Source: Marine Group I thaumarchaeote
GTDB lineage: Archaea; Thermoproteota; Nitrososphaeria; Nitrososphaerales; Nitrosopumilaceae
Direction: 5' to 3'
NCBI GenBank assembly: GCA_013390785.1
Contig: JACASW010000006.1
Span: 1 to 64,000, forward strand
DNA: 64,000 nucleotides
Part shown: in pieces, positions 1 to 20,887 of the stretch
Layout: each line of letters starts with the position of its first letter
Numbering within the stretch: the stretch's first letter is position 1
Made by a program: the position numbers and the translations under genes
Notes under the pieces: model-generated
The model's input: only the letters and a program-made list of their open reading frames with translations
Told to the model about the DNA's origin: nothing
The model's database searches: none

Positions 1-55
1 TGTTCGTTATTTTCTGACCATCTTTTTTGCCATTTTTTATCAATTGCATTCCAAT
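1..55 (-). repeat. Inverted exact copy of the leuS 5' end
   Basis: Read on the minus strand, bases 55 to 1 match bases 4400-4454 (codons 4-22 of leuS) without a mismatch, and the match runs off the window edge, so its full length is unknown. The base just before the match differs (A here, G in leuS). The copy is joined in frame to the end of the channel gene that occupies 56-659. The match is direct observation. The likely cause, an inverted amplification or assembly chimera, is inference. Confidence 0.95.
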
Positions 56-659
56 TGTATTTCATTGCAATCAATCTTAAACCAGTAGTAATTACTATTC
101 CCGAAATAGTTGCAACGTAAAGTTGGTCGCTAAACATTAAAACAAAATAAAATACTAGAGCACCGATAAAACTTGCGCTAGCATAAAATTCCTTTACAAA
201 CACTATTGGAGTTTGATTCACAAATATGTCTCTAAGTATGCCTCCTCCTATGGCAGTAAGCATTCCCGCAAGAACTATGATGAGAATATTCATTCCAAAT
301 AAGTTGTATGCAAATGTGGCACCTATTACAGTAAAAACACCAAGGCCTATCGCATCAAATTTTAAGAAAAGATTCCAATGTTTACGTAGTCTAGAATGTA
401 AAAGAAATATAATAATTCCAGTAATTACTGTAATTACAACATATGACGGATCAATCAACGAATTTGGAAGTGATTTTCCTAATATTACATCACGAATAGT
501 ACCGCCTGCAACACCAGTGATTGTAGCCAAAATGATTATGCCCACGATGTCAGCTTTGTGTTCAATTGCTTTGAATGCACCCGTTACAGCAAACGCCATA
601 GTTCCAAAAAGATCTAAAATATAGATGAACATCTCTATTGGAGTTGAAAATTCAACCAA
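1..659 (-). CDS. TRIC-type / UPF0126 membrane protein (YicG-like cation channel), 3' end replaced
   Basis: The protein shows the two-repeat architecture of the trimeric intracellular cation channel family (UPF0126), each repeat carrying a glycine-rich signature: AGGTIRD near residue 46 and GGGILRD near residue 127. Hydrophobic helices fill the rest, so it is an inner-membrane protein expected to conduct monovalent cations. The start is taken as TTG at 659, about 25 nt after a TATA-like stretch near 684; ATG at 632 is the alternative. Family members usually end shortly after a motif like the KYNW seen here. In this copy the sequence from NW onward is leuS-derived (see the repeat at 1-55), and no stop is reached before the edge, so the true C-terminus cannot be seen. 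Confidence 0.8.
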   Translation of the reverse strand, partial: MVEFSTPIEMFIYILDLFGTMAFAVTGAFKAIEHKADIVGIIILATITGVAGGTIRDVILGKSLPNSLIDPSYVVITVITGIIIFLLHSRLRKHWNLFLKFDAIGLGVFTVIGATFAYNLFGMNILIIVLAGMLTAIGGGILRDIFVNQTPIVFVKEFYASASFIGALVFYFVLMFSDQLYVATISGIVITTGLRLIAMKYNWNAIDKKWQKRWSENNE

Positions 660-731
660 TACAATTACATCAATGATCTAGTAAATAACATTGAAGATAG
701 AATAGATCTAGACTTGATTATGTTATAGAAT

Positions 732-1040
732 TTAACCGAATAAGGATGAAAGGCCTTCCATTGCTGCTTCTTCTTTCTTGCCGTCTGCCGCTTCATCTTT
801 CTTTTCTGCTTTTTTGCCTTCTCCGCCTTCTGCTGCTGGTGCTGCTGCTGGAGCGGCTGCTGCAATCGGAGCGGCTTTTATTGCTTCCTCAATATCAACG
901 TCAGCCAAAGATGCTACAAGTGATTTTACTTTTGCCTCGTTTAACTCTGCGCCAGATGCTTTTACTATTGAAGTAACATTTTCTTCAGTAATCTCCTTCT
1001 TTAGCTTATGAAGCATTAATGCAGCGTAAACATATTCCAT
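732..1040 (-). CDS. rpl12: Large ribosomal subunit protein L12 (P1/P2-type stalk protein)
   Basis: A 102-residue archaeal acidic stalk protein that binds L10/P0 and recruits translation factors to the ribosome. It has the expected helical dimerisation domain at residues 1-60 (starts MEYVYAALML), an alanine-rich hinge with a charged Lys/Glu stretch at about 60-95, and the conserved factor-binding tail GLSSLFG. A TATA-like box lies at about 1055-1066, some 20 nt before the ATG. The usual upstream partners L11, L1 and L10 are not adjacent; the gene stands between a TRIC-type protein and a gene of unknown function. Confidence 0.95.
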   Translation of the reverse strand: MEYVYAALMLHKLKKEITEENVTSIVKASGAELNEAKVKSLVASLADVDIEEAIKAAPIAAAAPAAAPAAEGGEGKKAEKKDEAADGKKEEAAMEGLSSLFG

Positions 1041-1098
1041 TGTCCCATTTTTTGAAGTGGATAATATAAAACTATGGAGAATTATAGCAAATTAAAAT

Positions 1099-1611
1099 TT
1101 AATTTAGAATTTTCAAACTTCTGCAAACTGCGTAGAGTGTCCTCTTTAATGGCTTATCAAATAATGTATCCCTCCGCTGTTTTAGAATACGTTTTGCTTC
1201 GTCCCTCTCAGATCCAGGTGGAAGAGAAAGCACAGCATTTGTCAATTCAGATATGCCCTCACGAATCCATCCCTCTAAAGTTGCATATACTCTATTTGGA
1301 AGCTCAAGAACCTGTTCTTTATCCAGATCGACAATATCATTAAAGTTCTCATGCTCAATACGATAAATTAGCAAGTGAATACAATTATCAGGATTGGGAT
1401 TTTTTAAAATTTCCATAGCTCGTGAGCCTGCCTTACCCTGCTCAACTTTGTTCTTTAGCCCAACTGGATTAATTATAATTCCGTTAACTCCAATTCTTTT
1501 CCCATCAACACCAGTAACTGCACCAAAAATTATTTTGTTATATTTACCATCTGGTCGTCTAGCAAAAACAAAATCGCCTTCTTTAAGACCTTTTTTACCT
1601 AGTCCAAACAT
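1099..1611 (-). CDS. Conserved-looking protein of unknown function
   Basis: A 170-residue soluble protein that I do not recognise. The N-terminal half is rich in Gly and Val (GDFVFARRPDG, then VTGVDGKRIGVNGIIINPVG), suggesting a beta-rich domain. The C-terminal half is helical and charged, ending with several Arg/Lys residues. There is no signal peptide or membrane segment. It is followed 58 bp later by rpl12 in the same direction and is divergent from alaS, 77 bp away, so it may be co-transcribed with rpl12. Codon usage is like that of its neighbours. A link to translation is suggested only by position. Confidence 0.75.
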   Translation of the reverse strand: MFGLGKKGLKEGDFVFARRPDGKYNKIIFGAVTGVDGKRIGVNGIIINPVGLKNKVEQGKAGSRAMEILKNPNPDNCIHLLIYRIEHENFNDIVDLDKEQVLELPNRVYATLEGWIREGISELTNAVLSLPPGSERDEAKRILKQRRDTLFDKPLKRTLYAVCRSLKILN

Positions 1612-1657
1612 GAGCTAAATCTGAATGTATTCTATTTAATTTATTGCAATCGACAAT

Positions 1658-1667
1658 TCTTAATATC
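1658..1667 (+). promoter_or_regulatory. TATA-like box of the alaS-leuS operon
   Basis: The A/T-rich core CTTAATAT is centred about 26 nt before the ATG at 1689. This is the spacing expected for an archaeal promoter producing a leaderless or nearly leaderless mRNA, and it is the main reason to prefer ATG 1689 over the upstream in-frame TTG at 1644, which would put this box inside the gene. Confidence 0.5.
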
Positions 1668-1688
1668 GGTCAGCCGAAAGCATTTCAA

Positions 1689-4385
1689 ATGGATAAAAAA
1701 GAAATTCTTTCAAAGTTTTCTGCTGACCCTGAACGATATTACATGGTAAAATTATTTGATGATGAAAAATTTGAGCGTAAGTCATGCGCAACATGTAATC
1801 GATTCTATTGGACTATAGATGGAGATCGTATAAATTGCCCTGATCATTCTGATGATACATATTCATTTATTGGAAATCCTCCAACAAAAAAAAGATTTGA
1901 TTATACACAAGCATGGAAGGAAGTTGAATCATTTTTTGTAAAAAATGGGCATACATCTGTTAATAGATATCCTGTTGTTTGCAGATGGCGTGATGATCTA
2001 TATTTTACAATTGCATCAATTGTTGACTTTCAGAGAGTGATGGGAAGTAAAGTTGTATTTGAATTCCCTGCAAACCCACTTGTAGTTCCACAGACTTGCC
2101 TTAGATTCAAAGATTTAGAAAATGTTGGTGTTACTGGGCGACACTTTTCAAGCTTTTGTATGATTGGACAGCATAGCATTCCAAATTCTCATGGATATTG
2201 GAAAGATGAATGTGTTGATTTGGATTACAGATTACTTACAGAACAATTTGGAGTTGATAAAAAGGAAGTTGTCTTTGTGGAAGATGTTTGGGAAGGTGGT
2301 GGTTCATTTGGTTCTTCTTTAGAATTTTTTGTAAATGGATTGGAACTTGGTAATGCAGTGTTCACTGAATTTCAAGGTGATCTGTCCAATTACAAGACAT
2401 TAGATCAACAAATTATTGACATGGGTGCGGGCTTAGAGAGATTTGCTTGGCTTACAATGGGAACACCAACTGCGTATGATTGTTGCTTTGGACCTATTAC
2501 TAACAATCTACTACAGCAAGTAGGAATTGATGTAAACAACGAACTCCTGGAAACATACTTTACTAAAATTGCAAAGCACATGGAGCAATTTAGTAATTTA
2601 TCTGATGTTAGAAAAAATGCAATAAAATCATCTGGTCTTTCAGATGAACAGATAAATAAAATCATAACACCGCTTGAAGGAATTTATTTAATTGTTGATC
2701 ACATTAGAACGCTGATTTTTGCAATATCAGATGGTGCTTTGCCAAGCAATGTTGGTGGTGGATATAACCTTCGGATGATGCTTCGAAGAATTATATCTAC
2801 GATGGACAGATTGTCGCTAAAATTTGATATGAATGAAATGGTTGACACACAAATTGATTATCTTAAAAATACGTATCCTGAACTGGAAAAAACACGTGAA
2901 GATATCAAGACAATAATTGGAATTGAGTCAGGTAGATATGAAAATTCAAAATTAAGGATGGAAAAAATTGTAAGCAAATTAAATCAAAAGCCTACAGTTG
3001 ACGATTTGATTAGACTTTACGAATCTGATGGCGTAACGCCTGATTACCTAAAAGAAATGAATGTGATTTCTGATATTCCATCTACATTTTATAGCAAATT
3101 ATCTGAATTACACCAATCAAAGAAGCAAAAAGGACAAGAACAAGTCTCATTAGAAGGATTGCCAGAAACTGAACTTTTGTATTATGAAGATGATCCAAAG
3201 GAGTTTGATGCAAAGGTCATAAAATCATTTGACAAGTATGTGGTATTGAATAAAACATCATTTTACGCAAGAGGTGGAGGACAAGAACCGGATCATGGAA
3301 CCATTGAAAAATTTGAGGTTGTTGACGTAAACAAACATGGTAACGTAATTGTACATGAACTGAAAAATGGTATTCCAAAAGAAGGTAGTACTGTTTCATG
3401 TGTTGTTGATTCGAAAAGAAGAGATGGAATTACAAAAAATCACACAAGTACTCATATTCTTAATTCGTCCACCCGAAGTGTTTTAGGATCATGGGTTTGG
3501 CAACATTCTGCGTTTAAAGAGGAGGATCATGCGAGGCTAGACATTACACACCATTCCGCTTTAACTAATGATGAAATTACAAAAATTGAAAGTTTAGCTA
3601 ATTCCATAGTTGAGAAAAACATGTCTGTGACAATTGATAATTTTGACAGAGGAACTGCTGAACAAAAATATGGATTTAAAATATATCAGGGAGGAATTGT
3701 TCCGGTAAAATTAGTTAGAATTGTATCAATTGAGGATTTTGATATAGAAGCATGCGGTGGAACACATGTTAAGAAGACGGGTGAGATTGAACTAATAAAA
3801 ATTACAAGAACGAAAAGGATCCAAGACGGTGTAGTCAGAATTGAATTTGTTTCGGGAGGAACTGCTCTAGATTATACCAAACAACATGATGCCAACTTGA
3901 TAAAAAAATCAGCAGAACTAAAAGAAAAAACAGAATTAAAAGAAAAAAGACGCGAACAAAAACAAGAATTAAGAGAAAAATTCCCATTTTTGGTGGATGG
4001 TATAACACAAAGTAAAATTGGTACAAACACCGTGGATGAAATAATTGTTGATATGACAGATCCTGGAAAACCAAACTTTTGCTCTACAATGAGTGATCGA
4101 TATGATGAATTTTTTCACATTAGCTTGGGAGAAAAACTAATCGAAAAGGATCCATGGATGGTTTACTGTGGTGTTTTTGAAGATGGAGACAAAGTTAGAG
4201 CAATAATTTATTCAGGTGAGCAAGCTGGAAAGGAAAAAAAAGCAGGTGATATTGCAAAAACTATGTCTGAAATACTTGGAGGAGCTGGAGGTGGAAACCA
4301 AAGGTTTGCTCAAGGAGGTGGAAGAGACAAATCTAAAAAAAATGATGCGATAGAAAAGGCAAAAACAATGGTTTTGGAAGTGTAA
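1689..4385 (+). CDS. alaS: Alanyl-tRNA synthetase, archaeal type
   Basis: Charges tRNA-Ala in the cytosol; 898 residues, normal for archaeal AlaRS. The archaeal N-terminal extension carries a Cys-rich segment (CATCNRFYW, then NCPDH). The class II catalytic core follows. The editing/zinc module has HxxxH at about residues 585-589 and CGGTH at about 689-693. A C-terminal domain ends in a Gly-rich, DHHA1-like segment (ILGGAGGG). A further in-frame TTG at 1644 is rejected because the TATA-like box lies at 1658-1667. The stop codon is only 4 bp before leuS, so the two synthetases form an operon. Confidence 0.97.
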   Translation: MDKKEILSKFSADPERYYMVKLFDDEKFERKSCATCNRFYWTIDGDRINCPDHSDDTYSFIGNPPTKKRFDYTQAWKEVESFFVKNGHTSVNRYPVVCRWRDDLYFTIASIVDFQRVMGSKVVFEFPANPLVVPQTCLRFKDLENVGVTGRHFSSFCMIGQHSIPNSHGYWKDECVDLDYRLLTEQFGVDKKEVVFVEDVWEGGGSFGSSLEFFVNGLELGNAVFTEFQGDLSNYKTLDQQIIDMGAGLERFAWLTMGTPTAYDCCFGPITNNLLQQVGIDVNNELLETYFTKIAKHMEQFSNLSDVRKNAIKSSGLSDEQINKIITPLEGIYLIVDHIRTLIFAISDGALPSNVGGGYNLRMMLRRIISTMDRLSLKFDMNEMVDTQIDYLKNTYPELEKTREDIKTIIGIESGRYENSKLRMEKIVSKLNQKPTVDDLIRLYESDGVTPDYLKEMNVISDIPSTFYSKLSELHQSKKQKGQEQVSLEGLPETELLYYEDDPKEFDAKVIKSFDKYVVLNKTSFYARGGGQEPDHGTIEKFEVVDVNKHGNVIVHELKNGIPKEGSTVSCVVDSKRRDGITKNHTSTHILNSSTRSVLGSWVWQHSAFKEEDHARLDITHHSALTNDEITKIESLANSIVEKNMSVTIDNFDRGTAEQKYGFKIYQGGIVPVKLVRIVSIEDFDIEACGGTHVKKTGEIELIKITRTKRIQDGVVRIEFVSGGTALDYTKQHDANLIKKSAELKEKTELKEKRREQKQELREKFPFLVDGITQSKIGTNTVDEIIVDMTDPGKPNFCSTMSDRYDEFFHISLGEKLIEKDPWMVYCGVFEDGDKVRAIIYSGEQAGKEKKAGDIAKTMSEILGGAGGGNQRFAQGGGRDKSKKNDAIEKAKTMVLEV

Positions 4386-4389
4386 AATT

Positions 4390-7278
4390 ATGGAAATAGA
4401 TTGGAATGCAATTGATAAAAAATGGCAAAAAAGATGGTCAGAAAATAACGAACATGAAACTGATTCTAACAATAAAGAAAAAAAATTCGTAACTGTAGCA
4501 TATCCTTATCCAAACTCACCTCAGCACATAGGACATGGTAGAACATACACCATTGCAGACGTTCATTCCAGATATTTGAGAATGAAAGGATTTAATGTGT
4601 TATTTCCAATGGGATTTCACTACACTGGTACACCCATTCTTGGCATGGCAAAAAGAGTAGAAGCGAACGATGCAGAATTAATTGAAGGATTCAAAACGTT
4701 ATACAACGTTCCTGAAGATAAAATTAAGGAATTTGTGGAGCCTGTAAAGATTGCTGATTATTTTCATGAAGAGATTAAATCAGGTATGATTGAGATGGGC
4801 TACTCTATTGATTGGAGAAGAGAATTTACTACAATTGATCCTGCTTACCAAAAATTCATAGAGTGGCAATTTAGAAATCTAAAAGAAAAAAATCTAATTG
4901 TGCAAGGTTCACATCCTGTTGGATGGTGTCCAAAGGATCAAAATCCAGTTTCACAGCATGACACACTTGGAGATGTAGAGCCTGATTTCACGGAATATAT
5001 TGTCATTAAATTTGATTTGAATGGAGTAAAAATTCCTGTCGCTACATTAAGACCTGAAACATTGTTTGGAGTAACAAATATCTGGATAAATCCTCAAGTT
5101 ATGTATCAAAAAATCAAAGTGAATGATGAAATTTGGATCACTAGTCCAGAATGTGCACGGAAACTAGAGTTCCTAGAAAAAAAAATTGAAGTGATAGAAG
5201 ATGTTTTGGGAAGTGACTTTGTTGGTCAAAGTGCTAAAGCTCCACATAGTTCTGACTCGGTGTTGATTTTACCAGCCAGTTTTGTAAAAAGTGATAATGG
5301 GACAGGAATTGTGATGTCTGTTCCTGCACATGCACCATTTGATTACCAGGCTCTATTAGATTCCAAATCTGGAAAAAATAAATCAATAAACAGTGATCTT
5401 CTAAAGAATATCCAAAATATTGAACCAATTTCTATGATAAATACAGAAGGTCTTGGTAACATACCTGCAAAAGATATTGTAGAAAAGATGGGAATTTTAC
5501 ACCAAGATGACCCAAAGCTAGAAGAGGCCACAAAAGAGATCTATTCAAAAGAATTCTATGAGGGAATTTTGGGTGATAACACAAAGCAATTTGCAGGAAA
5601 AAAAATTTCTGAAGCAAAAGATGAGATTAAAGAATGGATTACAAAAATTGGAAGTGCTGATATTCTATTAGAATTAACAAATTCGCCAGTAAAATGTCGT
5701 TGTGGAACTGAATGCGTTGTGAAATTATTGAGTAATCAATGGTTTTTAGATTATTCAAACAAAGACTGGAAACAGAAGGCTCATAGCTGCTTTGAGGGAA
5801 TGAATATTCTTCCTAATGAAATACGTTCTGAGTTTGATAAAGTTCTTGATTGGCTTAGAGAAAGAGCTTGTGCAAGGCAGCATGGATTAGGAACGAAAGT
5901 TCCATGGGATAAGGAATGGTTAGTTGAAAGTTTAGCTGATTCTGTTATTTACATGGCATTCTATATCATCTCGAAATATGTTAACAAAAAAGAAATTAAT
6001 GGGAATGATCTAACTGACGAATTTTTTGATTATGTTTTTTATGGAAAAAAAAATTCAGGAGAAATTGCAAATAAAATAAACATTACAAAAGAAAAATTAG
6101 AAGAAATTCGAAATGAATTCCTGTACTTTTATCCAGTTGATTCTAGACACTCTGGTAGGGATTTGGTTCCAAATCATCTAACATTTTTTGTTTTAAATCA
6201 TGTCGCGCTTTTTCCCGAGGAAAATTGGCCACAAGAGATTGTTGTCAATGGTTCAGTACTAATGGCAGGAAAGAAAATGTCAAAGTCAATGGGAAATATT
6301 ATTCCGCTAAGAGATGCAGTAAGAAAACATGGTGCTGATCCAATACGTCTAACAATTTTAATTTCTGCAGAATTATTACAAGATGCTGATTTTAATGTTG
6401 AAGCAATTAATGGAATTAAAAACAAACTTGAATCCATGTATGAAAATTCTACCAAAACTAAAGCGGAAGAAATTCCAGAACTAGAACCGGAAGACAAATG
6501 GATACTTAGTATGTTACAAAATTTAGCCCTTAATGTAAGTCAATCAATGGATAAGATTAGGTTTAGAGAAGCATTGCACCACATTTTGTATGATTTTGAT
6601 TCTGAACTGCAATGGTACCTTAAAAGAACAAAATCAAAACAAAGAACAAATATTTCTGGAATTCTTCACAAAATTTTGTCGTCTAGAGTTTTAATGCTCT
6701 CACCTTTTGCCCCACATATAGCAGAAGAAATATGGAAAAAATTGGGCAATTCAGAATTAGCTTCAAAATCAGCATGGCCTTCATCTATTGGAATAGAAAT
6801 TGATTCAAAATCAATTCAAACTGAAACGTTGCTAAAATCAATTATTGATGACATTAACAATATTCTAAGAGTAACCAAAATTTCGCCAAAAAAAATTACA
6901 ATTTACACCGCAGAACAATGGAAATCTAAAGCCTATAATTCAATTCTTAAAAATGTGTTAGATGGTCAAACGAACATAGGTACAATCATAAAATCATTAA
7001 TTGCAAATAAGGAAACAGAACAAATCAAAAAAGATCCTGATTTTGTAAAAAAAACACTCAAAGATATTCTATCTGAACCTGTTGAACTAAGAAATGGAAG
7101 AATGAATATTGGTCAAATTGATGAAAAGGAAATCATCAGTTCAGAATTATCATCACTTGTAAAAAATGACTATGATGTTGAACTAGGTGTTTTTTCCGAA
7201 TCAGACTCTGAAAAATATGATCCTAAAAATAAGGCAAAAGCCGCTAGGCCCTTCAAGCCAGCAATACTAATCGAATAG
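4390..7278 (+). CDS. leuS: Leucyl-tRNA synthetase, archaeal type
   Basis: A class Ia synthetase of 962 residues, full length for archaeal LeuRS. HIGH occurs at residues 46-49, and KMSKS at about 629-633. A CP1 editing insertion lies between them, including the threonine-rich LRPETLFG region that hydrolyses mischarged tRNA. An anticodon-binding domain and an archaeal-type C-terminal extension follow. It starts 4 bp after alaS and is probably co-transcribed. The first codons (4400-4454) reappear inverted at the left edge of the window, which affects interpretation of that edge rather than of this gene. Confidence 0.97.
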   Translation: MEIDWNAIDKKWQKRWSENNEHETDSNNKEKKFVTVAYPYPNSPQHIGHGRTYTIADVHSRYLRMKGFNVLFPMGFHYTGTPILGMAKRVEANDAELIEGFKTLYNVPEDKIKEFVEPVKIADYFHEEIKSGMIEMGYSIDWRREFTTIDPAYQKFIEWQFRNLKEKNLIVQGSHPVGWCPKDQNPVSQHDTLGDVEPDFTEYIVIKFDLNGVKIPVATLRPETLFGVTNIWINPQVMYQKIKVNDEIWITSPECARKLEFLEKKIEVIEDVLGSDFVGQSAKAPHSSDSVLILPASFVKSDNGTGIVMSVPAHAPFDYQALLDSKSGKNKSINSDLLKNIQNIEPISMINTEGLGNIPAKDIVEKMGILHQDDPKLEEATKEIYSKEFYEGILGDNTKQFAGKKISEAKDEIKEWITKIGSADILLELTNSPVKCRCGTECVVKLLSNQWFLDYSNKDWKQKAHSCFEGMNILPNEIRSEFDKVLDWLRERACARQHGLGTKVPWDKEWLVESLADSVIYMAFYIISKYVNKKEINGNDLTDEFFDYVFYGKKNSGEIANKINITKEKLEEIRNEFLYFYPVDSRHSGRDLVPNHLTFFVLNHVALFPEENWPQEIVVNGSVLMAGKKMSKSMGNIIPLRDAVRKHGADPIRLTILISAELLQDADFNVEAINGIKNKLESMYENSTKTKAEEIPELEPEDKWILSMLQNLALNVSQSMDKIRFREALHHILYDFDSELQWYLKRTKSKQRTNISGILHKILSSRVLMLSPFAPHIAEEIWKKLGNSELASKSAWPSSIGIEIDSKSIQTETLLKSIIDDINNILRVTKISPKKITIYTAEQWKSKAYNSILKNVLDGQTNIGTIIKSLIANKETEQIKKDPDFVKKTLKDILSEPVELRNGRMNIGQIDEKEIISSELSSLVKNDYDVELGVFSESDSEKYDPKNKAKAARPFKPAILIE
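4400..4454 (+). repeat. Source arm of the 55-bp inverted repeat inside leuS
   Basis: This stretch of leuS (codons 4-22) is identical to the reverse complement of bases 1-55. The two arms are separated by about 4.3 kb in inverted orientation. At least 55 bp match and the true length is unknown, because the other arm reaches the window edge. This copy is the genuine one: it sits in a complete, family-typical LeuRS N-terminus. Confidence 0.95.
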
Positions 7279-7316
7279 AGATAGTATTTATTTTGTTAAA
7301 ATTAGTTTGATTTAGA

Positions 7317-8327
7317 ATGAAAATTGCTGTTATGGGAATGGGAGTAGCGGGCAGTTATCTAGTTTCTAGATTGAAAAATGACCATGATGTGATAGGTTTT
7401 GAAAGAATGGATGAGATTAAGCATGACTCAATTTGTGCGTGGGGATCCATCAAATCTACTATGGTAGATTTATGCAAGAAATCAGGAATTGATTTTGAAA
7501 AATATGTTGTGCATGATGGTAAAAAAATGCATGTTGATATGAATAACCAAGAAAGATTTCAGATTGGATTACATGGACTCTGTACATATGAAAAGTTAAG
7601 TTTGATTAAGGATTTCATCAAGGATTCTGAAGTTCATTTTGGAGTAAATAAAAAACTAGAGGAATTAGAATCAGAATTTGACATTATAGTTGACTGCACA
7701 GGATTTCACCGAATTTATTTACCAAAATTAGAACAGGATTTTTGTCTACCTACATATGAATACAAAATTGAATATGAAAATGGAGTGCCATTTGATGACT
7801 TTTACATAAAACCATTTCCTCATATGTCAGGTTACTTTTGGTATTTTCCTATGGGTAAAAACCTTGCACATATTGGTGCAGGTGATTATAACAAACAACA
7901 TGTAGAAGAAACTAACAAATTCTTTAAGAAGTATGGAGGTAAGGTAACAAAAACTGTAGGTCGTCCCATAAGACTTGCTACGCCAAATATGTGTAAACCA
8001 TTTTACAAAGGAAAAGTTGTTGGAGTAGGTGAATCTATAGGAACAGTCTATCCTTTACTGGGCGAAGGAATTATTCCAAGTATGATGTGTGCAGACATTT
8101 TTGTTAAAAATCTTGGTGATAATGAAAGTTATGAAAAAGAAGTTGATGAATATTTCAAGATTTACGGAAAAGTTTTCAATTTTATAAGAACTAAATTACA
8201 CAATAAATTCAATCTATTAAGAATGATGCCTGATCTTCTTTCTATATTTAGATATATGAAAAAGAATGAAGAAAGATTTGGAATGGAAATTAATATGCGC
8301 GACTTGATGAAAGTTGCTAAAGCTTAA
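7317..8327 (+). CDS. Geranylgeranyl reductase family FAD-dependent oxidoreductase
   Basis: A 336-residue flavoprotein with an N-terminal dinucleotide-binding motif (GMGVAG, residues 7-12), a DCTG segment typical of the second FAD contact, and a YFWYFPMGK-type stretch around residue 180 characteristic of geranylgeranyl reductases. In archaea such enzymes saturate the isoprenoid chains of membrane lipids; the exact substrate here is inferred from the family only. A TATA-like box (TATTTATT) about 27 nt before the ATG suggests leaderless transcription. It converges with, and overlaps by 4 bp, the YkgJ-type gene on the other strand. Confidence 0.8.
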   Translation: MKIAVMGMGVAGSYLVSRLKNDHDVIGFERMDEIKHDSICAWGSIKSTMVDLCKKSGIDFEKYVVHDGKKMHVDMNNQERFQIGLHGLCTYEKLSLIKDFIKDSEVHFGVNKKLEELESEFDIIVDCTGFHRIYLPKLEQDFCLPTYEYKIEYENGVPFDDFYIKPFPHMSGYFWYFPMGKNLAHIGAGDYNKQHVEETNKFFKKYGGKVTKTVGRPIRLATPNMCKPFYKGKVVGVGESIGTVYPLLGEGIIPSMMCADIFVKNLGDNESYEKEVDEYFKIYGKVFNFIRTKLHNKFNLLRMMPDLLSIFRYMKKNEERFGMEINMRDLMKVAKA

Positions 8328-9028
8328 CCTAAACTTATTGAACCTAGTCCTTCACGCATAGTTCCGCTAGACTTTATGTTATAATCATGTATTATTACAG
8401 AATATTCTTGTAAAATTTCTTTCATGGAATCAATTGAATCATCAAGGTAAAAACCTGGACAGTCTCCAGTAAACTGAAAAGTAGCATGAACTCTCGCATT
8501 GCCTTTATCATTTTGCAGCCATGTTGAAAATGGATATAGATAACAAACTCCAGGTCTAGTTGGGTGAATGCCACAAGCGCCTTCTTCATCTAGAAATCTG
8601 CATTTGATGTGAGTACCATCATCTGCTTCTGTTTCATCCTCCTTTCGTTTCAAATTAATACTGGTTAACGTAGTAGAACCACCTCCAGGACTTGGTTCCT
8701 GCCAAGTTGCTATCACTGTTTCATTTTTTATGAAATCAGATGTTTTTTGATATTTCATTCCAGTCCCAATTGTTATCAAATCATCAGAAGTTAAAGGAAG
8801 TCTACCTTGCCTTGTACAACAATTTGAACAGTCTGGCCAATAACATTTCCAAAGAATAAATTTTTTTATTTTAGTTAAAAATGGGATATGGAATACAACA
8901 TCATCTATTTTTATAGAATTTTCAGAAACATCATCACGTTTTCCTAAATGAAAATCTTTTATTATTGGCTCTATATCCCAGTCCTTTTCTAAAAGTTCTA
9001 ATGATTCTGCAATCTCATTATGGGACAC
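8324..9028 (-). CDS. YkgJ-family cysteine-rich metal-binding protein
   Basis: A 234-residue protein with the CxxCC hallmark of the YkgJ / UPF0153 family (CYWPDCSNCC near residue 66) and later cysteines in CRFLDEEGACGIHPTRPGVC. The family is predicted to bind an Fe-S cluster or zinc; its biochemical role is largely unknown. The start codon is GTG at 9028. The gene is divergent from a small winged-helix protein only 30 bp away, so the two promoters overlap. Its 3' end overlaps the preceding flavoprotein gene by 4 bp. Confidence 0.8.
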   Translation of the reverse strand: MSHNEIAESLELLEKDWDIEPIIKDFHLGKRDDVSENSIKIDDVVFHIPFLTKIKKFILWKCYWPDCSNCCTRQGRLPLTSDDLITIGTGMKYQKTSDFIKNETVIATWQEPSPGGGSTTLTSINLKRKEDETEADDGTHIKCRFLDEEGACGIHPTRPGVCYLYPFSTWLQNDKGNARVHATFQFTGDCPGFYLDDSIDSMKEILQEYSVIIHDYNIKSSGTMREGLGSISLG

Positions 9029-19054: not shown

Positions 19055-19888
19055 ATGAATTCTCGTAGACATACGATCACATCACTTTCGATCGTTCTTC
19101 TTGCAGTAACTATTATGTCTGTTTCTGCCATAGGTCAAAATGCCTATGCTGGCGGAGCTGGCATGTCACTGTCTGCGGATTGTTCTGGTTCAAGTTGTGA
19201 CATAAGTGGAACAACTGACAGAAGTGATCAAGATGCAACAATGGTTGTAACAGCACCTAACGGCAACATAGTTACAGTTGGCCAATTAAGTACATCAGGT
19301 GGTAGCTATTCTACATCAATTAATGTAAGCAATCTAGATGATGGTAGTTACACAGTCGCAGTAAACCAAGGTAGTTCTTCAAAGTACAATCTATCAGTTA
19401 GCGTTGATGTTTCAGATGGAAGTTCAGATTCATCTGCATCAGTAAGCAATCAAATAGCTGCATCAGAAGAGGAAGCAGCAGCATCAGTAGCATCTCCAGT
19501 AGGTGGATTCACCATAACAGCTGGTGGAATGGAAGGTTCTACTACAATTGACGTAAGCGGAACAACTGACAGAAGTGGAGACATTACACTTACCGTTACA
19601 GCACCAAATGGAAACATTGTAACAGTATCTCAGATATCTCCTTCAGGTGGTAGCTTTGCAACAACAATCGAAACAGGTGGACCAATGTGGAGCCAAGATG
19701 GAATGTATACAATCAAAGCAGTTCAAGGAGCAGCTTCAAGTCATCAGAAAACTGCTCAAGTTGAAGTTATAGATGGTCATGTTATTCCAGAATTTGGTGT
19801 TATTGCTGCAATGATACTCGCAGTTGCAATTGTATCAATAATTGTGGTCACTGCAAAGACAAAACTCAGTTTGGTACCAAGGTACTAA
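19055..19888 (+). CDS. PEFG-CTERM surface protein with two similar repeats
   Basis: A 277-residue secreted protein. There is an N-terminal signal peptide (about residues 1-32, ending near AYA), then two related domains containing SGTTDRSG/SDQ and TVTAPNGNIVTV, suggesting internal duplication (about 40-115 and 150-235). A Ser/Ala-rich linker separates them. The protein ends with the PEFG-CTERM sorting signal: IPEFG, a hydrophobic helix, and a basic tail. It is predicted to be an extracellular surface protein typical of marine thaumarchaea; the function is unknown. It is the first of three PEFG genes, and its 3' end is copied exactly in the second. Confidence 0.88.
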   Translation: MNSRRHTITSLSIVLLAVTIMSVSAIGQNAYAGGAGMSLSADCSGSSCDISGTTDRSDQDATMVVTAPNGNIVTVGQLSTSGGSYSTSINVSNLDDGSYTVAVNQGSSSKYNLSVSVDVSDGSSDSSASVSNQIAASEEEAAASVASPVGGFTITAGGMEGSTTIDVSGTTDRSGDITLTVTAPNGNIVTVSQISPSGGSFATTIETGGPMWSQDGMYTIKAVQGAASSHQKTAQVEVIDGHVIPEFGVIAAMILAVAIVSIIVVTAKTKLSLVPRY

Positions 19889-19902
19889 AATTCATCTTTT
19901 TA
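19784..19902 (+). repeat. 119-bp perfect direct repeat, copy 1 (PEFG tail)
   Basis: Identical base for base to 20717-20835. It covers the last 34 codons of the gene (from the I of IPEFG to the end), the stop codon and 14 bp beyond it. The rest of the two genes is clearly diverged, so the identity is local. Confidence 0.97.
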
Positions 19903-19954
19903 TTTTGTTTATTAGACTTACTAGATAATTAGCAATATCATATCTTCAAATAAC

Positions 19955-20821
19955 ATGAATAAGCACGTGATGCCCGTATTAGTTGCTATTTTAATTCTAT
20001 CCACAACTGGTCTCGCATCACAAGCATTTGCTGCAACTACTATTACAATTAATACAGACAAGGATGTTTATGATCACACTGACATTGTTACTATAACAGG
20101 AACTGTTGACCCTGTTGATGAAAATGAAATACCAATATCTATTTTGTTTGTAAATCAATATGACAGCATTGTTAGTATAGACCAACTTTTCGTGAACAGT
20201 GATGGTAGTTGGTCAGGTCAAATTGTACTTAATCCTAAAAATAATTTACAGAGTGAAGATGGTGTCTACGAGATTAGAGCGAGTTATGGCAACTTTGCTT
20301 CAATAGCCTTGTCAATCGAACTGACTAATGCTGTTGAAACATCTGAAGCAGAAGGAACAGAAGTTGGAACAGCTGTAACTGGAACAGCTGTAATCGGAAC
20401 AGACGTAACTGGACCTAGTGGTGAATCATTCTACAAATTAGCTGGAGGACAAGTAGACTATGATGAAACATGTAATTCTAATCCTGCTTTTTTTGCCAAT
20501 GCGGATGATGATAGTATTGTAATATACCTTGATCCAGTCAATGATGGAATACTAACAGTTACTTTGCACGAAGATCTAATCAAACCTTTTGAAGATGGAA
20601 CCTTTGCAGTCATAGTAAATAATCAAGAAATGCAAGATTTCACACAGGTTGGAAATACACTAACAATTCCATGTGTTGTAGGAACTGAAAAAATTGAAAT
20701 TCATGGTAGTTGGGCGATTCCAGAATTTGGTGTTATTGCTGCAATGATACTCGCAGTTGCAATTGTATCAATAATTGTGGTCACTGCAAAGACAAAACTC
20801 AGTTTGGTACCAAGGTACTAA
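19955..20821 (+). CDS. PEFG-CTERM surface protein
   Basis: A 288-residue secreted protein. It has a signal peptide (about 1-26, ending AFA) and an N-terminal beta-sandwich-like domain (about 30-125: VYDHTDIVTITGTVDP, then DGSWSGQI). A short threonine/glycine repeat (TAVTGTAVIGTDVTG, about 142-156) follows, then a second domain rich in acidic residues, and the PEFG-CTERM tail. It lies 66 bp after the first PEFG gene, in the same direction. The tail is nucleotide-identical to that of the first gene. The function is unknown; it probably sits at the cell surface. Confidence 0.88.
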   Translation: MNKHVMPVLVAILILSTTGLASQAFAATTITINTDKDVYDHTDIVTITGTVDPVDENEIPISILFVNQYDSIVSIDQLFVNSDGSWSGQIVLNPKNNLQSEDGVYEIRASYGNFASIALSIELTNAVETSEAEGTEVGTAVTGTAVIGTDVTGPSGESFYKLAGGQVDYDETCNSNPAFFANADDDSIVIYLDPVNDGILTVTLHEDLIKPFEDGTFAVIVNNQEMQDFTQVGNTLTIPCVVGTEKIEIHGSWAIPEFGVIAAMILAVAIVSIIVVTAKTKLSLVPRY

Positions 20822-20835
20822 AATTCATCTTTTTA
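20717..20835 (+). repeat. 119-bp perfect direct repeat, copy 2 (PEFG tail)
   Basis: The exact counterpart of 19784-19902, offset by 933 bp. It includes the complete PEFG anchor, stop codon and the first bases of the 3' untranslated region. It points to recent gene conversion or transfer of the anchor cassette. Confidence 0.97.
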
Positions 20836-20887
20836 CTGTCATAATTAAATCAGTAAAGGAAATATAGAATCCGAATTTAAATTGGTT

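Follow-up and report, generated by a model that had tools for sequence, protein, structure and literature searches.

The window analysed here is a stretch of 64,000 bases comprising positions 1-64000 of contig C3 in the G000 assembly (26 contigs, 949,320 bases, about 82% complete), and its base 1 is the first base of that contig. Its left part carries, in this order, genes for a channel protein, ribosomal protein P1, a 170-residue protein (ORF170), AlaS, LeuS and a reductase—a conserved gene order whose spacing is also kept in relatives. ORF170, encoded at 1099-1611 on the minus strand, gave no Pfam match; every relative compared has it conserved in this position, flanked by the ribosomal P1 gene and alaS. 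The features of the contig edge and of its counterpart in leuS are the following:

1-47, minus strand: spurious tail derived from leuS and fused to the truncated channel gene; reverse complement of 4408-4454, with the alignments of five congeners starting at 48
48-55, minus strand: junction microhomology ATTGGAAT, 8 bp, present in the channel gene and in leuS; from a three-way comparison with the end of the G010 channel gene and the leuS of the window
1-55, no strand assigned: outermost 55-mer of the contig, at which the K=55 graph branches, and inverted copy of 4400-4454; overlaps of exactly 55 nt occur at 23 of the 46 readable contig ends
48-659, minus strand: genuine part of a UPF0126/TRIC-like channel gene, without its last codons (LPKVRG..stop); PF03458 'Gly_transporter', 1.9e-43
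4400-4454, plus strand: authentic 55-mer, within the leuS 5' end; the alaS and leuS genes of congeners align collinearly
4390-7278, plus strand: intact leuS, leucyl-tRNA synthetase of 962 aa; Pfam tRNA-synt_1, Anticodon_1 and editing domain

Bases 1-55 are the exact reverse complement of 4400-4454 (100% over 55 nt), and the two arms are separated by 4344 nt. The whole 64-kb window contains 31 overlapping inverted 25-mers, which together make up this one 55-nt repeat, and no second inverted repeat with at least 25 exact bases was found elsewhere in it; because this is the sole inverted 25-mer repeat in the window, a chance match is excluded. Within leuS, the copied segment spans gene bases 11-65. 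Read on the minus strand, it lengthens the channel ORF by leuS-derived residues joined in frame. However, both genes read ATTGGAAT in one and the same frame (N-W-N in the channel gene, D-W-N in leuS), so that an in-frame join needs no selection. A preliminary description of this DNA had reported an exact inverted 55-bp copy of the leuS start, with arms about 4.3 kb apart, fused in frame to the channel ORF through a short shared sequence. The copy, its distance and a shared stretch, here of 8 bp, were all confirmed, as was the frame, although the latter is explained by the shared bases; the copy does come from the 5' end of leuS, but the start codon itself is not included.

A different kind of repeat was observed further along the window, where two adjacent genes for secreted proteins have near-identical 3' ends (19750-19914 and 20683-20847; 88% identity over 165 nt, 119 common 25-mers). 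Both proteins end in an identical IPEFGVIAAMILAVAIVSIIVVTAKTKLSLVPRY tail, which we take to resemble the PEFG-type sorting signals described for these archaea, and the near-identity of the two 3' ends is perhaps due to recent gene conversion.

To place the length of the repeat in the context of the assembly, the ends of 23 readable contigs (46 ends, with three small masked contigs left out) were compared with sampled stretches of the same assembly, contigs longer than 24 kb being sampled over no more than the outer 12 kb at either end. An exact match of at least 20 bases elsewhere in the assembly was found for 24 of the 46 ends; the overlap was exactly 55 nt at 23 of these and 42 nt at the remaining one. 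A single overlap length of 55 nt across contig ends is what de Bruijn assembly at K=55 leaves behind, contigs ending at a branching K-mer—and the 55-mer of the window has indeed two predecessors, A in the channel gene and G in leuS, forming such a branch. K=55 occurs in the default K sets of SPAdes. As the assembly graph has a K of 55, the repeat length is not biological: it is set by the assembler and is constant across the assembly, a point that was missed in the first reading.

The window is not the only place in G000 with such a structure. Inverted self-overlaps also occur at six more ends or loop contigs, with arms 0.12-9.7 kb apart—a spread that is partly limited by the sampling of long contigs near their ends only. 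Together with the contig end of the window, they are:

C3, left end (this window): arms 4344 nt apart; 8 bp microhomology
C10: inverted self-overlap, 4676 nt apart; both ends join C18
C16: inverted self-overlap, 3607 nt apart; both ends join C23; microhomology of about 10 bp, allowing divergence
C20: inverted self-overlap, 9667 nt apart; both ends join C15; microhomology of about 7 bp
C22: inverted self-overlap, 7071 nt apart; microhomology of uncertain length, at most 6 bp
C24, left end: inverted self-overlap, 120 nt apart; 5 bp microhomology
C24, right end: 42-nt inverted arm, 2304 nt apart

Where measurable, the microhomology at these junctions amounts to 5-10 bp. When G010 and G026 served as guides, C16, C20, C22 and the left overlap of C24 each proved to have one end collinear with relatives and one chimeric end, while C10 gave only weak, partial matches to both guides. 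None of 68 contig ends in two control assemblies showed an inverted self-overlap (40 ends of the MAG G016 and 28 ends of the SAG G013); the SAG control, being devoid of such ends, indicates that the pattern is not universal among single-cell assemblies.

Two of the contigs deserve separate mention. C10, a loop contig of 4,786 bases with 28% G+C, lies next to the start of C18 and possibly represents strain-specific island DNA. C26 (37,204 bases) has identical first and last 55 bases in direct orientation, about 37 kb apart, so that the contig closes as a circle. A circular virus or plasmid was considered but is unlikely, as the genes sampled look like chromosomal housekeeping genes (by reading, IMP dehydrogenase, SAM synthetase and GMP synthase); a chimera of the direct type or a loop in the graph is the more probable origin of C26.

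On this basis, the contig very probably begins with a chimeric junction, generated when a single cell or a template of very low input was subjected to multiple displacement amplification (MDA). Among the closest relatives, several carry isolate names of a kind that, we assume, is given to single-cell genomes. A technical chimera that arose without MDA—by template switching during library preparation, by ligation or as a pure error of the assembler graph—is improbable: an assembler alone would explain the length of 55 nt, and assemblers run at K=55 serve metagenomes too, but several inverted junctions spanning less than 10 kb, with 5-10 bp of microhomology in one small genome, correspond to the profile of MDA. 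Moreover, a pure graph error would require a pre-existing common 55-mer, whereas the true loci have just 8 bp in common.

Comparison with relatives places the boundary between genuine and foreign sequence at the contig edge. Collinearity extends over window positions 48-9000 for G010, G026, G007 and G025 and over 48-5743 for G024, base 48 being the start of the alignment with each of these five congeners; bases 1-47 are thus foreign at this place, bases 48-55 are common to both loci, and the real channel gene extends from base 56 onward. We also examined 80 related channel loci, taken from searches of congeners and named genomes; the genus of G000 is the Nitrosopelagicus / Marine Group I group, and not Nitrosopumilus, which had been proposed for comparison. 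All 80 proteins contain the motif K/R-Y/F-N-W-N/H followed by L/F-P.., with a stop within 5-13 residues, and none of the 80 loci has a leuS-derived tail or fusion. The 204 residues of the channel protein in the window align to relatives, every one of which goes on to LP..stop. The suggested comparison of the channel C-terminus and its downstream sequence therefore returned a normal end throughout and the junction nowhere, and it also corrects the assumption that the family terminates at a KYNW-type end, since the family runs on for 5-13 further residues (LPKVRG.. or LPKVKS..) before the stop.

The neighbouring sequence expected beyond the channel gene was located in another contig. From 491 bases past the aligned end, the G010 sequence 3' of the channel gene matches G000:C13:21567-30523 in the expected orientation, which is the 3' end of a contig of 30,531 bases, and the comparison with G007 ends at the identical point of C13. 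The first ~490 bases downstream of the channel gene have no match in G000, pointing to a coverage gap of about 0.5 kb between C3 and C13. Judging from these alignments, the chromosome would continue from the last codons of the channel gene through this unassembled gap of ~0.5 kb into C13.

These results bear directly on the alternative, raised in the preliminary description, of a real inversion or fusion—namely a strain-specific inverted partial duplication or inversion in which the 5' end of leuS became fused to the channel gene, giving the protein a charged C-terminal tail. The ORF does remain open through the junction up to the contig end, but this reading is scarcely credible: the arrangement is absent from 80 of 80 related loci, the normal neighbour of the channel gene sits at the end of C13 in the orientation expected, the copy is exactly K bases long, free of mismatches and stops at the contig edge, and several similar junctions exist within the same assembly. 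We likewise discarded the possibility that the arms form the terminal inverted repeats of a linear element, since only one of them is terminal and the genes are chromosomal housekeeping genes in conserved order.

Within the collinear region, one segment stands apart in its divergence. Across 4550-8300, covering leuS and the next, reductase-like gene, the window shares only 61-88% identity with G010 and G026, versus 83-94% in the flanks, while these two genomes are 96-100% identical to each other in the matching region—higher than in their own flanks. The identity of leuS to G007 is still 82-89%. From the sequences compared, leuS and the adjoining gene appear to have undergone homologous replacement in one of the lineages.

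Returning to MDA as the preferred explanation, phi29 amplification is known to form such junctions when displaced 3' ends reanneal to neighbouring displaced strands (PMC1855051). In the present case, a displaced 3' end would have paired, by way of the 8 bases of ATTGGAAT, with a neighbouring single strand of the other sense at a distance of about 4.35 kb, and the channel gene would thereby have become linked to leuS in inverted orientation. The de Bruijn assembler (K=55) would then have met a junction 55-mer already present inside leuS, and the contig would end with an overlap of exactly one K-mer because that 55-mer had been placed there. Absence of the junction from 80 related loci, the true neighbour on C13, an overlap of 55 nt assembly-wide and recurrent junctions with 5-10 bp of microhomology were directly observed, and they support the MDA-type inverted chimera put forward in the preliminary description; phi29 MDA as the source of the junctions is what we infer from this pattern.

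The inverted leuS copy is almost certainly an artefact of DNA amplification that is uninformative about the organism, and no fusion gene needs explaining. We recommend trimming bases 1-47 and annotating the channel gene as cut short by the contig end. More broadly, this case carries a warning for genome scans: inverted copies at contig edges that are one assembler K long and have a few bases of microhomology are amplification chimeras, not to be taken for fusions, inversions or terminal repeats. A practical filter is to check whether the contig-end overlaps all share one length. Gene calls touching chimeric ends are wrong—here, that of the channel C-terminus.

The published record on phi29 MDA offers a close parallel. 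Inversions made up 406 of 475 junctions (85%), the segments were less than 10 kb apart in 337 of these 406, and 93.5% of the latter had at least 2 bp of complementarity (Lasken and Stockwell 2007, PMC1855051). In a larger study (PMC4595205), most overlaps measured 5-8 nt, 6 being the commonest length, and the segments lay 0-5000 nt apart; the published overlaps range up to 21, mostly 5-8 (PMC1855051, PMC4595205). Literature on hairpin-type graph structures in single-cell assembly yielded nothing specific. The C3 junction resembles the phi29 chimeras (PMC1855051; PMC4595205) in its inverted arms less than 10 kb apart (4344 nt), in its short complementarity (8 bp), in its absence from the 80 related loci and in its recurrence, with many such junctions in one genome. 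It differs in that the published chimeras were found in reads, whereas ours lie at contig ends of a finished assembly, from which we infer the amplification. Likewise, the contig-end overlaps resemble the terminal K-mer overlaps of de Bruijn assemblies in being all of one length, 55 nt, but the partner site here lies in the interior of the very contig that it ends, in inverted orientation—a branch that needs chimeric reads to arise.
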